DNA of 64,000 nt from Lachnospiraceae bacterium (GTDB lineage: Bacteria > Bacillota > Clostridia > Lachnospirales > Lachnospiraceae): positions 111,734 to 175,733 of the forward strand of contig JAFTKW010000003.1 in assembly GCA_017453065.1 (NCBI GenBank), given 5' to 3'. The position numbers and the translations under genes are program-made. Positions within the stretch are counted from its first letter, which is position 1. Every line of letters begins with the position of its first letter. Positions 30,312 through 59,529 of the stretch are shown here, piece by piece. Below the pieces are notes generated by a model, which did not search any database, was not told where the DNA came from, and saw nothing but the letters and a program-made list of their open reading frames with translations.

Positions 30312-30671
30312 TTAATCAATCACTCTTACACCTTCAACAAAGATGTTGATTTTTTCAATTTTAATTCCTGTAAATTCTTCCACTTTATATTTCACATTGC
30401 TAATCAGATTGTCGGATACAGCCAAAATACTTACGCCGTAAGCAACAATCACATGGAAATCTAAAGTGAGTTTATTATTATTCAAAGTGACATTAATACC
30501 TTTTGTAAGGCTATCGCTTTTCAATAGACGAACCAAACCATTCTTCACACTGAAACCAGCCATACCAACAATACCAAAACACTCAACAGCAACACTACCT
30601 GCGTACTGAGCGATTACTTCATTATCAATAATGATATTACCTAAATGGGTATTTAATGATGAACCTTTCAT
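30312..30671 (-). CDS. Asp23/Gls24 family envelope stress protein (YloU-like)
   Basis: 119-residue Asp23-fold protein. The pattern NHLGNIIIDNEVIAQYAGSVA-like N-terminus (here HLGNIIIDNEVI), VECFGIVGM and GVSILAVSDNLISNVKYKVEE are typical of the small YloU members, which lie upstream of fakA in Firmicutes and are linked to cell-envelope stress and fatty-acid kinase function. AAGGAGG precedes the ATG. It opens the asp23-fakA-recG-degV run. Confidence 0.9.
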   Translation of the reverse strand: MKGSSLNTHLGNIIIDNEVIAQYAGSVAVECFGIVGMAGFSVKNGLVRLLKSDSLTKGINVTLNNNKLTLDFHVIVAYGVSILAVSDNLISNVKYKVEEFTGIKIEKINIFVEGVRVID

Positions 30672-30708
30672 ATCAAACCTCCTTAAGGATTTTTACATAC
30701 ATATCCGT

Positions 30709-30737
30709 ATTATAACTGTTTTTCTTAAAAAAAGAAA
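30709..30737 (-). promoter_or_regulatory. Probable promoter of asp23-fakA operon
   Basis: On the minus strand a perfect TATAAT lies 38 bases before asp23; the -35 (TTTCTT at 17 bases) is weak and embedded in an A/T-rich tract. Confidence 0.45.
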
Positions 30738-30778
30738 CAAAAATTTAAAAATTCTTAAAAAATACAAATAAATTTTGC

Positions 30779-30807
30779 TTGCAATCTCATTCCATATCTG
30801 TTAAGAT
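30779..30807 (+). promoter_or_regulatory. Probable promoter of rpmB
   Basis: TTGCAA, 17 bases, TAAGAT, 77 bases before rpmB. The leader contains a short palindrome, GCGAAT-GA-ATTCGC, at 30817-30830. Confidence 0.6.
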
Positions 30808-30884
30808 ATCAATGTTGCGAATGAATTCGCATGTATTTTGATAAGAAGATTACACGTACACAAGTATGTTGAGGAGGTGTCAAG

Positions 30885-31070
30885 ATGGCTAAGTGTGATG
30901 TTTGTGGTAAAGGCGTTCATTTCGGAAATAACGTAAGCCATTCTCATAGAAGATCCAATGCTATTTGGAATGCAAATGTTAAAAGTGTTAAATGTAAAGT
31001 TAATGGCGGAGCAAAGAAAATGCACGTTTGCACAAGTTGCTTGAGATCTGGTAAAGTTGAAAGAGCTTAA
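30885..31070 (+). CDS. rpmB: 50S ribosomal protein L28
   Basis: Large-subunit ribosomal protein of 61 residues. Two zinc-binding cysteine pairs are present, CDVC near the N-terminus and CTSC near the C-terminus, so this is the C+ form of L28. HSHRRSN and the basic middle are typical. GAGGAGG lies 8 bases before the ATG. It is divergent from asp23-fakA and followed by its own terminator. Confidence 0.97.
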   Translation: MAKCDVCGKGVHFGNNVSHSHRRSNAIWNANVKSVKCKVNGGAKKMHVCTSCLRSGKVERA

Positions 31071-53039: not shown

Positions 53040-54095
<1,056 letters not shown>

Positions 54096-54128: not shown

Positions 54129-54629
54129 TTAATCTAAATAGATTACACCATCTGCTCCTCTGGAAAGACCAGCAATACCTGTTCTGGCAATCTCAAGGAT
54201 TTCATAACCATCAAGCAATTTGATAAAAGCTTCAATCTTAGACTGGTTACCAGTAAGTTCAATAATCAAACTATCTGTAGCGACATCAATAATCTTTGCT
54301 CTGAAGATATCAGCCACAGAAATCACTCCCTGTCTCTGCTCCGCCTGTGCTCGAACTTTGATTAAAACTAGTTCTCTATAAACACTCTCATCTGGTTTTA
54401 GTTCCTTGATATCTCTAATATCTACCAGCTTTGCAACTTGCTTTTCAATCTGTTCCAAAATGTCATCATCACCAGAGGTGACAATTGTAATTCTGGAAAA
54501 TCTAGGATCTGCAGTCACACCAGCTGTAATACTTTCAATATTGTATCCTCTTCTGGAGAACAAGCCTGAAATTCGGCTCAGTACACCTGATGTATTGTCT
54601 ACCAATAATTGAAATACTTTTTTCTGCAT
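54129..54629 (-). CDS. ilvN: Acetolactate synthase small (regulatory) subunit
   Basis: 166 residues. Two ACT-type domains: the first begins QLLVDNTSGVLSRISGLFSRRGYNIES, the second includes ELTGNQSKIEAFIKLLDGYEI. It binds valine or another branched-chain amino acid and controls IlvB. ATG 54629 has GGAGGG 4 bases upstream. It has its own promoter and LysR-type box, separate from ilvB, and leads into ilvC. Confidence 0.93.
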   Translation of the reverse strand: MQKKVFQLLVDNTSGVLSRISGLFSRRGYNIESITAGVTADPRFSRITIVTSGDDDILEQIEKQVAKLVDIRDIKELKPDESVYRELVLIKVRAQAEQRQGVISVADIFRAKIIDVATDSLIIELTGNQSKIEAFIKLLDGYEILEIARTGIAGLSRGADGVIYLD

Positions 54630-54671
54630 ATTTCCCTCCGTGCCTATCAACAAATCCTCTTATTAGTCCAT

Positions 54672-54772: not shown

Positions 54773-55264
54773 CTAATTCTTTTCGCTTTCGCTACATTTA
54801 GGAAGTGCCAATGTTCCAGTTCTTGCAACTTCCACAATACTTATGGACGCAAGCATACTAATCAAAAGTTTTGTTCGTTCTGGAACATCACATATCTGAA
54901 GCATCATATAATTCTTAGACATATCAACAATCTCAGCCTTCATGATGCTGGCAATCTCCATTACATCTCTGCGATTGCCCTTGTTGTACTTTACCTTGAC
55001 AAGCATCAACTCTCTGCTGACACTTGCATTTTCATGAAAGGTTTTCACCTTAATAACATCTAGTTTTTTGTTTAATTGTTTTTCAATCTGTTCAATGGTT
55101 CTTTCTGTGCCAGTTGAAACAATAGTCATACAGGAAACAGAAGGATCATCCGTTTCACCAACTGTCAAAGAATCAATATTGAAACATCTTCTTGAAAAAA
55201 GTCCCGCAACTTTACAAAGTACACCAGAGCGGTTTTCTACTAATACAGAATAAATTCTTTTCAT
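54773..55264 (-). CDS. Second IlvN-like ACT-domain protein
   Basis: 163 residues, with the same two-domain layout as ilvN (YSVLVENRSGVLCKVAGLFSRRCFNID) but clearly diverged (about 40% by eye). It lies just after ilvB (18 bases past the natural ilvB end), so it may be the native regulatory subunit of this IlvB. ATG 55264 is chosen for AAAGGAG 8 bases upstream; a GTG 9 bases earlier overlaps that site. Its last residues are polar and short. Whether both regulators bind one catalytic subunit is open. Confidence 0.85.
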   Translation of the reverse strand: MKRIYSVLVENRSGVLCKVAGLFSRRCFNIDSLTVGETDDPSVSCMTIVSTGTERTIEQIEKQLNKKLDVIKVKTFHENASVSRELMLVKVKYNKGNRRDVMEIASIMKAEIVDMSKNYMMLQICDVPERTKLLISMLASISIVEVARTGTLALPKCSESEKN

Positions 55265-55282
55265 TTTCGCCACTCCTTTACT

Positions 55283-55360
55283 TTATACCAGATCCATTGG
55301 ATCAATAATGCATTCCATAAGGGCTGCGCCTTCTTCTTTTAGGAAAGCATCAATCTTGTC
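55283..55360 (-). other. Detached 3' end of ilvB beyond an in-frame TAA
   Basis: After the TAA at 55361-55363 the same frame continues for 25 sense codons (DKIDAFLKEEG, then MECIIDPMDLV) to a second TAA. The sequence matches the normal C-terminus of acetolactate synthases, so this is the separated tail of the gene rather than chance. Confidence 0.85.
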
Positions 55361-56896
55361 TTATACACCATCCATATCAAATACTCGAATAAAAGGCATA
55401 TCATAGGCCGCTGCTAATTTTTCCAAATCAGGACTTCCAGACAAATCTACTACAGAATAATTATCTTTGTAAGTAAAGTGCTGATACTGTCTAACCATGC
55501 CCAAATAACCATTTTTGAGTACAATAATCTTCACAGGGATATGGTGCTGTTTGATGGTCGCAAGCTCCATCATAGACATTTGGAACGAGCCATCTCCGCA
55601 GACCGCCACAACCAGTCTGCTTGTATCTGCTAATTTGGCACCCATTGCCGCTGGAATAGAATAACCCATAGTTCCCATTCCACCAGAAGTGAGGAAATCT
55701 CCTTCTTTCACCACATGATAACCACAGGACCAAATCTGATTTTGACCCACATCCGCTACATATACAGAATCTTTTGGCATCTTCTCTGACAACAGTGTGA
55801 TAAAAGCTGCTGGATCCACAAATTCTGGATTTGGATTTCTCTTTAAAGCCATAGACTCTCTATACTCTTCTAAGGATGCAATCCACTGTTCATAATCACT
55901 TTCAAAATCTTGTTTCAAAAACTCTGCAAAAATATTTTTGGCATCGCCTACAAGTGGAATGGTTGGTCCTGCATTTTTGCCAATTTCTGCAGGGTCTACA
56001 TCAATATGTACCAAAACCTTATTTTGTGTAATTAAATCAGGCTGACTGACTGCTCTATCTGCCACTCTGGCTCCAACCATAATCAACAAATCGGACTGGT
56101 TCATGGCTTTGTTGGCATAAGGCTTACCATTGTTACCAACCATACCATAGTACAAAGGATGATTGGTTGGCATTGCACCGATTCCCATCATAGTCGAAAC
56201 CACAGGAATCTGATGGGCCTGCGCAAAAGCACGCAGTTCCTCTTTTGCGTCGCTGAGAAGCACGCCGCCACCTGCACAGATAATAGGTCTTTTTGCTTTT
56301 TCTAATTCTTTGATTACTTTCTGAATCTGTACCGCATGCCCCTTCACTGTTGGCTTGTAAGTACGCATACTGATCTCTTCAGGATATTTAAATTTGTTGA
56401 TCGTTGCATTCTGAATATCAATAGGAACATCAATTAACACTGGCCCTTTTCGTCCAGAATTCGCAATGTAAAAAGCTTCTTTAAAAATACGTGGAATATC
56501 TGCAACATCCTTTACCAGGTAGCTATATTTTACAAAAGATTCTACCGCACCTGTAATGTCTGCTTCCTGGAAAACATCACTTCCTAAAAGTTCACTATTT
56601 ACCTGTCCTGTGATGCAAATAAGTGGAATGCTGTCTGCAAAGGCAGTTGCAATACCAGTAATTACATTGGTAGCACCTGGGCCTGAGGTAACAGCGCAAA
56701 CACCAGGTTTGCCAGAAATTCGTGCCTGTCCGCTTGCTGCATGAGCTGCGTTCTGCTCTGTGCGGATTAAGATGGTGCGAATATCTGATTGAAGGATACT
56801 ATTATAAAAAGGGCAAATTGCGACACCAGGATAACCATAGACTATGTCTACTCCTTCAGCCTCAAGACATTTGATCATTGCATCTGCTCCGTTCAT
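55361..56896 (-). CDS. ilvB: Acetolactate synthase large subunit, shortened by in-frame stop
   Basis: 511 residues read to the stop; 25 more codons follow in frame, and with one sense codon in place of the TAA the gene would give 537. ThDP-dependent condensation of pyruvate (or pyruvate and 2-oxobutyrate) starts valine, leucine and isoleucine synthesis. Catalytic Glu47 in RTEQNAAHAA, the FAD/quinone-binding middle and the ThDP motif GDGSFQMS...KNGYLGMVRQ are intact; the missing tail normally closes over the active site. It has a sigma-A promoter and a leader hairpin. Strain mutation, assembly error or read-through are all possible. Confidence 0.9.
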   Translation of the reverse strand: MNGADAMIKCLEAEGVDIVYGYPGVAICPFYNSILQSDIRTILIRTEQNAAHAASGQARISGKPGVCAVTSGPGATNVITGIATAFADSIPLICITGQVNSELLGSDVFQEADITGAVESFVKYSYLVKDVADIPRIFKEAFYIANSGRKGPVLIDVPIDIQNATINKFKYPEEISMRTYKPTVKGHAVQIQKVIKELEKAKRPIICAGGGVLLSDAKEELRAFAQAHQIPVVSTMMGIGAMPTNHPLYYGMVGNNGKPYANKAMNQSDLLIMVGARVADRAVSQPDLITQNKVLVHIDVDPAEIGKNAGPTIPLVGDAKNIFAEFLKQDFESDYEQWIASLEEYRESMALKRNPNPEFVDPAAFITLLSEKMPKDSVYVADVGQNQIWSCGYHVVKEGDFLTSGGMGTMGYSIPAAMGAKLADTSRLVVAVCGDGSFQMSMMELATIKQHHIPVKIIVLKNGYLGMVRQYQHFTYKDNYSVVDLSGSPDLEKLAAAYDMPFIRVFDMDGV

Positions 56897-56974: not shown

Positions 56975-59485
56975 CTACTGAAGTAGCCTTTTTGCAAGTT
57001 TTACTGCATCTGCCGCATCCTTAGAATAACCGTCTGCGCCAATTTCATCTGCGTAATCCTGGGTTGTAACAGCGCCGCCAATCATAACTTTCACAGCCAA
57101 GCCTTTTTCTCTCACTAAATCTACAACTTCTTTCATTCGAATCATAGTCGTGGTCATAAGTGCTGACAAAGCAATAATTCTAGCCCCTTCCTCCTTGGCC
57201 ACTTCAACGATTTTGTCCGCAGGAACATCCTTACCCAAATCAATCACCTTAAAGCCATGATTTTTCAGCATCAAAGCGACTAGATTTTTGCCTATATCAT
57301 GGATATCACCTTCAACCGTTGCAATGACGATTGTTTCTGAGTCTTGCGCATCAGTTGCCTTCAGCATATAAGGTTCCAAAACTTCAATACCCTGTTTCAT
57401 AGCTTCCGCACTAGAAATCAATTGTGGCAAGAAATATTTTCCTTTTTCAAAGAGAAATCCCACTTCACCTATGGCAGGCATCAAGACTCTATCTAACAAT
57501 CCTTTTGCGTCTATCTCATCCTCCATCGCTTGTTTGCACAGCTCAGTGGATTTCGATTGATTTCCTTTCAAAACAGCTTGATATAGATGTTTTTCAAATT
57601 CTGTATAGTTCGATTGTTGTGCAAGGTCTCCCTCTATATTTCCCTTCTCATTTAATGCATCAGCCGTGACTTGCTTTGCATCCGAATGAATAGTAAGCGG
57701 TTTTTGAGCCTGTAGTACTAAAGCTGCTTCTTTTCTTTCTTTGATATTGCCTGCCACTTCTATATATCTCATATCAGCCCCTGCTTTTGCCAGTAGCAAA
57801 TCTGTAGCAAAAGCACACCCCATCAAAAGATCCTGTGAAGGGTTGGCAATTGCCATGGTAAGTCCTTTCGAAATTGCCATGGTCAAAAAAGCAGTGTTTA
57901 CATAGCTTCGCTCGGGCATTCCAAAAGAAATATTGGATAGTCCACATATTGTAGCCAAATTATTTAACTTGCAATATTCTATAGTCTGAAGGGCTTGCAA
58001 TGCAGCCTCTTTATTTGCTCCAATTGTATTTACCAGAGCATCTACAACAATATCTTCTTTTTGGAGTCCACATTCCAAAGCTCTTTTCACTATTTTTTCT
58101 ATGATGTCAATCTTTTCCTCTATATTTGCAGGCAATCCTGCATCAGACAAAGGAAGCAGAATAAACATGGCTCCATATTTTTTCGCTATAGGAATCAATT
58201 TTTCAAACTTTTCTTTCTCAAAAGAAATAGAATTGATTAAAGCTCTACCCGGATAAATTCGCAAAGCATTTTCTATGACATCAACATGACTGGAATCAAT
58301 TGCAAGGGGCAAAGAGGTTGCCATGGATAATTGTTCAATGGCACTTAACATCATTGCTTTTTCGTCAATTCCACTCATTCCCATATTTACATCAAGAACA
58401 GAAGCGCCACACTCTTCCTGCTCTGCCGCAAAATTTAGCGCCATTTCTAGGCTTCCATTTCTTAATGACTCTTGAAACTTTTTCTTTCCTGTAGGATTGA
58501 TCCTTTCACCGACTACAACAAACGTATCATTCATCCGGATATCCAAGGTCTGTCTTTCAGAACAAAGATAACGAACCTTTGACGTATTTCTGGCCATTGG
58601 TTTGAGTCCTGCACAAGCCTTCGTCAAGGCTTCTATATAGACAGGTGAAGTTCCACAGCATCCACCTAAAATACTTGCCCCAGCTTCAATGAGAAGTTGT
58701 ATCTCCTGTGCAAATTCCTGTGAATCCATATCAAAATAAGTTTGCCCATTTGTATCTACCTTTGGCAGGCCCGCATTTGGTTTGGCAACAATAGGTATGT
58801 TTGTCACATTTGCCATTGCAGAAACAACTTCCACCATCTGTTTTGGACCAGCACTACAATTTACTCCCACTGCATCAACGCCTAAACTTTCAAGTACAAT
58901 TGCCGCTGTCTTGGCATCTGTGCCAAACAAAGTTCTTCCATTATTCTCAAATGTCAAGGTTGCAATAATAGGTAGGTCGCAGGTTTCCTTCGCTGCAATC
59001 ACACAGGCTCTTGTTTCCTGCAAACTCATCATCGTTTCAACCACAAGCAAATCAACACCTGCTTGAACCATATATGTAATTTGTTCCTTGTAAACAGTAA
59101 TCAAATCTTCAAAATCCAAATCACCAATTGGCCTTAATTGTCTTCCTGTCATGGTAAGATCGCCTGCAACGAAGGCTTTTCCATCTGCAGCCTTTTGGGA
59201 AAGAGATACCAGTTTAAATATCATCTCTTTCAGCGAATCTTCCAATCCATACTCTTGTAATTTGATCCTATTGGCTCCAAAAGTAGGGGCATAAAGAATA
59301 TTCGTTCCGGCTTTCACGTACTCTTTCTGTAATTGAATTAGCACTTCTGGATGCTGAAGTATCCATTGTTCTGGACATACACCAGGCTTCATACCTGCTT
59401 TCATTAAATTTGAGCCAGTTGCTCCATCCAAAAAAACGAATCGATTCTGTGTCAGTTCTTTAAATTCCCTTTTTGTCATAGCCAT
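56975..59485 (-). CDS. metH: Cobalamin-dependent methionine synthase, short form
   Basis: 836 residues. Transfers methyl from methyl-tetrahydrofolate to homocysteine through B12. Domains: homocysteine/zinc barrel (about 10-300, GVNCSAGP and GGCCGTSP), pterin barrel (about 320-570, VVGERINPTGKKKFQ), cobalamin cap and B12 Rossmann domain (about 717-836, DIHDIG at 727-732). The AdoMet-reactivation domain of E. coli MetH is missing, as in many Clostridia. ATG 59485 has AAGGAAG 8 bases upstream, better than 59506. No SAM riboswitch is visible. Confidence 0.93.
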   Translation of the reverse strand: MAMTKREFKELTQNRFVFLDGATGSNLMKAGMKPGVCPEQWILQHPEVLIQLQKEYVKAGTNILYAPTFGANRIKLQEYGLEDSLKEMIFKLVSLSQKAADGKAFVAGDLTMTGRQLRPIGDLDFEDLITVYKEQITYMVQAGVDLLVVETMMSLQETRACVIAAKETCDLPIIATLTFENNGRTLFGTDAKTAAIVLESLGVDAVGVNCSAGPKQMVEVVSAMANVTNIPIVAKPNAGLPKVDTNGQTYFDMDSQEFAQEIQLLIEAGASILGGCCGTSPVYIEALTKACAGLKPMARNTSKVRYLCSERQTLDIRMNDTFVVVGERINPTGKKKFQESLRNGSLEMALNFAAEQEECGASVLDVNMGMSGIDEKAMMLSAIEQLSMATSLPLAIDSSHVDVIENALRIYPGRALINSISFEKEKFEKLIPIAKKYGAMFILLPLSDAGLPANIEEKIDIIEKIVKRALECGLQKEDIVVDALVNTIGANKEAALQALQTIEYCKLNNLATICGLSNISFGMPERSYVNTAFLTMAISKGLTMAIANPSQDLLMGCAFATDLLLAKAGADMRYIEVAGNIKERKEAALVLQAQKPLTIHSDAKQVTADALNEKGNIEGDLAQQSNYTEFEKHLYQAVLKGNQSKSTELCKQAMEDEIDAKGLLDRVLMPAIGEVGFLFEKGKYFLPQLISSAEAMKQGIEVLEPYMLKATDAQDSETIVIATVEGDIHDIGKNLVALMLKNHGFKVIDLGKDVPADKIVEVAKEEGARIIALSALMTTTMIRMKEVVDLVREKGLAVKVMIGGAVTTQDYADEIGADGYSKDAADAVKLAKRLLQ

Positions 59486-59529
59486 CAAATTTACTTCCTT
59501 TTTCATCGGATTTTGCTTAATATTTAACT

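Follow-up and report, generated by a model that had tools for sequence, protein, structure and literature searches.

Why does an acetolactate synthase gene stop 25 codons short of the usual end of its family, and what would this cost the cell? The question is raised by an ilvB on the minus strand of the 64,000-nucleotide stretch of Lachnospiraceae DNA that we analyzed (hereafter the window). In the ORF list, the gene runs from 56896 to 55361 and is closed, after 511 codons, by a TAA at codon 512 (55361..55363), which is evident from translation and is also flagged by the genome search as a single TAA inside the match. Beyond it, the frame continues unshifted for another 25 codons (55286..55360), ending in MECIIDPMDLV directly before a second TAA (55283..55285), which is where the ilvB genes of relatives end in the alignment. 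The whole frame thus spans 511 + 1 + 25 = 537 positions. The shortened gene is readily recognized as encoding an acetolactate synthase large subunit of the ilvBN-operon type, scoring 611 bits against TIGR00118, above the curated threshold of 538.35, and two small-subunit (ilvN) genes adjoin it downstream.

The gene was compared with 137 relative loci, that is, 80 named loci (the best 80 of 584, labeled mostly Lachnospiraceae), 29 loci of the genus and 28 more, which together represent 106 distinct proteins and in which some genomes recur. All 137 loci read past codon 512, none having a stop at or before that position, and their products are 537 (49 loci), 538 (79), 539 (7) or 543 (2) residues long. 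We therefore rejected a naturally short form of the gene; relatives ending at the same residue, which the first-pass annotation had named as a possible refutation, were not encountered. Among 87 close same-genus matches, four of which are cut by contig ends, no stop falls within the part aligned to residues 1-511. Column 512 itself is variable and mostly polar in the 106 relatives (E 37, D 33, Q 17, S 6, K 5, others). Past the stop, we picked 12 columns as conserved, their commonest residue being common to 95 to 106 of the 106 relatives, and the window has this residue in all 12. Judged from the alignment, this match is more than chance. Translation and alignment hence uphold the earlier description of an in-frame stop, followed by a genuine family C terminus, in a whole frame of 537.

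As for what the stop removes, the N and M domains of the window copy are complete (PF02776, positions 1-117 of 119; PF00205, 1-135 of 137), while the C-terminal ThDP domain, PF02775, is matched over positions 1-127 of 151. The intact relative L087 has this domain in full (1-151), ending at residue 529 of 538. The window gene, which has lost the last 18 residues of the domain, thus lacks the complete N, M and C set, and by its profile matches it is a TIGR00118 member by descent, but a truncated one. The lost segment, which by the known fold would be a helix and the last strand of the ThDP-binding domain, aligns to solved plant enzymes within one continuous match. Only 9 residues lie beyond the Pfam C domain in L087, of the ilvBN type, versus 33 in a second ilvB of the same assembly (domain end at 528 of 561), and the plant enzymes likewise extend past the aligned part. 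This extension is presumably the lid over the active site. The active site had been proposed to lie under the lost tail, but the ilvBN-type family, which ends at about 537-543 residues, is without the extension, and a lid is therefore not what the stop takes away. A literature search on C-terminal truncation of acetolactate synthase returned nothing usable.

The genes around ilvB are all on the same strand. Upstream lies a large methionine synthase-like gene (56975..59506, named by eye), which the tblastn neighbors show to be present in relatives too. Downstream come two intact ilvN genes (54773..55264, TIGR00119, 174.9 bits; 54129..54653, 196.7 bits), both recovered by the own-genome search, and an intact ilvC (53040..54059, TIGR00465, 458.1 bits). 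For the first ilvN, the ORF list gives a GTG start at 55273; we prefer the ATG at 55264, which is preceded by AAAGGAG and lies 18 bases past the second TAA and 96 past the first. For the second ilvN, the listed start is a TTG at 54653, and an ATG is present at 54629. A tandem pair of ilvN-like genes follows ilvB in 72 of the 80 named loci (again the best 80 of 584 matches), and a single one was seen in the remaining eight, five of which have a short flank. A pattern count of the ilvB-to-ilvN gap recognized 63 of the 137 loci only, and no result is drawn from it. Between 49000 and 60500, only a tRNA reached the gathering score in a search for regulatory RNA.

Would losing this gene mean losing the pathway? 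The second ilvB lies on another contig of the assembly (C18:214105-215787), encodes 561 residues with no stop inside the frame, shares 41% identity with the window copy and directly follows ilvD (TIGR00110). By eye, it has leuB upstream and serC and serA downstream. Two ilvN genes were found in the own-genome search, both in the window, and one class-IV aminotransferase is encoded on contig C44. Since the second ilvB is intact, the loss of valine and isoleucine synthesis suggested by the first-pass annotation is unsupported and was rejected; with this copy, ilvC, both ilvN and the class-IV aminotransferase at hand, it would be unlikely on gene content. Mis-binning of the contig bearing this spare copy is conceivable, though the best matches of the second ilvB are family genomes too. 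A side observation concerns substrate choice. The C18 copy (L145) reads GMVRQW, a motif whose Trp, we assume, governs 2-ketobutyrate preference and herbicide binding, and at the corresponding window codon 471 the 107 ilvBN-type sequences carry Tyr in 90 cases, Phe in 16 and His in 1; because of this, the two isozymes may differ in the substrates they choose.

The reading that we rank first, and consider probable, is that one of two ilvB genes, encoding an acetolactate synthase isozyme buffered by the other, has recently acquired a nonsense allele. The affected copy belongs to the metH-like/ilvB/ilvN/ilvN/ilvC cluster, with genes for the small, regulatory subunits beside it, and an intact second isozyme is encoded in the same genome, on C18. 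The 511-residue product, without the end of its ThDP-binding domain, would be unstable or inactive. Ribosomes would stop 96 instead of 18 bases before the first ilvN, the translation of which may drop. The solo IlvB encoded behind ilvD would supply acetolactate, so that valine and isoleucine synthesis would be kept, and the cell would lose the ilvBN isozyme and perhaps also its feedback control.

A survey of 397 family genomes, done at a strict threshold (E <= 1e-180) that makes the counts lower bounds, found the solo ilvB in at least 355 and the ilvBN type in at least 83. Of the ilvBN-type genes in 82 other family genomes, one more is broken. This gene, in genome G236 of another genus (L214:4280-5900), is interrupted in frame by a TAG at codon 476, where all 106 relatives have Tyr, and its frame past the TAG is open to the usual end. 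By eye, two ilvN-like genes and an ilvC-like gene are whole in G236, where leuB- and ilvD-like genes are also followed by a complete solo ilvB. Internal stops are absent from all 150 solo ilvB among the matches listed (355 of 397 genomes matched). Twenty of these 150 were flagged with one stop, always at the natural end: four from query position 556 of 561 onward and 16 past the end of a local match that reaches 555 or more. The excess of stops in the ilvBN type, 1/82 versus 0/150 listed solo genes, is not significant (Fisher p = 0.35), and p is 0.13 when the window, which was chosen for its stop, is counted. Separately, searches of G057, a 92% complete genome of the same genus in which the solo ilvB is present, recovered neither ilvN nor ilvC nor an operonic ilvB; a missing assembly piece is as likely an explanation as real loss. 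A broader reading, which we hold to be doubtful, is that in Lachnospiraceae with both enzymes the regulated ilvBN type is repeatedly silenced by nonsense mutations spreading within species, whereby acetolactate supply would shift to the solo enzyme encoded in the serine-BCAA operon, which may be free of feedback. The support for it consists of two stops, both young and of independent origin, which were found in two genera, each time in a genome with an intact solo copy.

How old could the stop in the window be? The closest relative found is 76% identical in DNA, and the conserved tail is nevertheless kept, so the stop would be young relative to the species split, or absent from living cells. 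In a neutral-drift simulation, the probability that all 12 columns are kept and no stop arises was 0.061 at 0.10 substitutions per site and 0.016 at 0.15. Nor is clear decay evident in the 511 codons ahead of the stop, where the window differs at 2 of 289 well-conserved columns, a count reached or exceeded by 37 of 107 sequences (the window counted). Such a body would fit both a very young stop and a sequence error.

Next in rank comes an error of base calling, consensus or strain mixture, with an intact ilvB in living cells. We find this rather unlikely, but it is the alternative that survives best. One substitution suffices to produce the stop, neither tail nor body is clearly decayed, and a broken form occurs in just one other of 82 family genes. 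The assembly (G000; 2.73 Mb, 84.7% complete) consists of 45 contigs and is 5.06% contaminated. When ilvB and the 58 other listed window genes were compared with one contig of G031, 39 had a syntenic same-frame match, and ilvB alone among them has a true internal stop. That it is the only broken gene of the 39 speaks for a clean assembly, but is still compatible with a single wrong or minority base, and it counts for an error as well. A second apparent case in this comparison, at 30312-31025 with two stops relative to the G031 frame, was rejected: the window gene (119 aa) is whole, and by eye the G031 frame fuses a real gene of ~119 residues with a stretch upstream of it that reads antisense to a ribosomal-protein-like gene. 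An error is made less probable by the position of the stop, which is outside a homopolymer on a contig that continues 8.6 kb further, by the general rarity of substitution errors in deep consensus and by the fact that G236 has a stop of independent origin in this gene. The residues of the tail are a little unusual (fifth lowest of 107), which counts weakly in the same direction because blocks 426-450 and 1-25 of this protein come second and sixth; with other blocks about as low, we draw no inference from tail drift and rejected it as proof of a real stop.

It is improbable that the stop is tolerated and the 511-residue enzyme still active. While the body is well conserved and the TIGR00118 score remains above the cut-off, the tail is kept in all 137 loci, with several columns fixed or nearly so in the 106 proteins, and what is missing includes the last 18 residues of PF02775, in a segment that is part of one continuous alignment to the plant structures. 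We give hardly any credence to read-through of the stop, by suppression or a programmed event yielding some 537-residue enzyme, which the earlier annotation had put forward: the frame does go on with a conserved tail to a second stop, but TAA is the usual stop here (it terminates 40 of the 58 other listed window genes), a TTA (ochre) anticodon is absent from all 43 tRNA matches typed in this 84.7% complete genome, folding gives the RNA flanking the stop no advantage over shuffled sequence (z = -0.20), column 512 is free of stops in all 137 relative loci, the G236 gene has a different stop codon in a different place, and with neither a suppressor tRNA nor a cis signal found, nor a stop kept in relatives, recoding of TAA was rejected.

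If the nonsense allele is real, it warns that a gut Firmicutes genome should not be called auxotrophic for valine/isoleucine on the strength of one broken ilvB, since the serine-BCAA operon can supply a second synthase for the step. The allele would then also offer a natural knock-out for probing the role of the regulated isozyme in the gut. Among the published accounts, the part of PMC5727371 that we consulted holds nothing decisive on the ilvB question. In Roseburia, two acetolactate synthase sets are described, one with a lone large subunit that is part of a combined serine-BCAA operon, the other with both subunits in an operon of their own (PMC7478625). The window genome has the same two-set arrangement; a broken copy is not described for Roseburia in the section consulted. 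The closest parallel is E. coli K-12, where a natural frameshift inactivates one large subunit, that of ilvG (AHAS II), and other isozymes remain, according to the portion of the account that we consulted (PMC6483228). In both cases, one large-subunit gene is mutated while others remain, the inactivation being established for ilvG and presumed for the window gene. The two differ in that ilvG has a frameshift whereas the window ilvB has a nonsense codon near its 3' end, and in that the window's broken copy adjoins its small-subunit genes. The window ilvB looks like a new example of a known phenomenon, the ordinary loss of an isozyme that the cell can spare, or else like an assembly slip, and not like a new mechanism.
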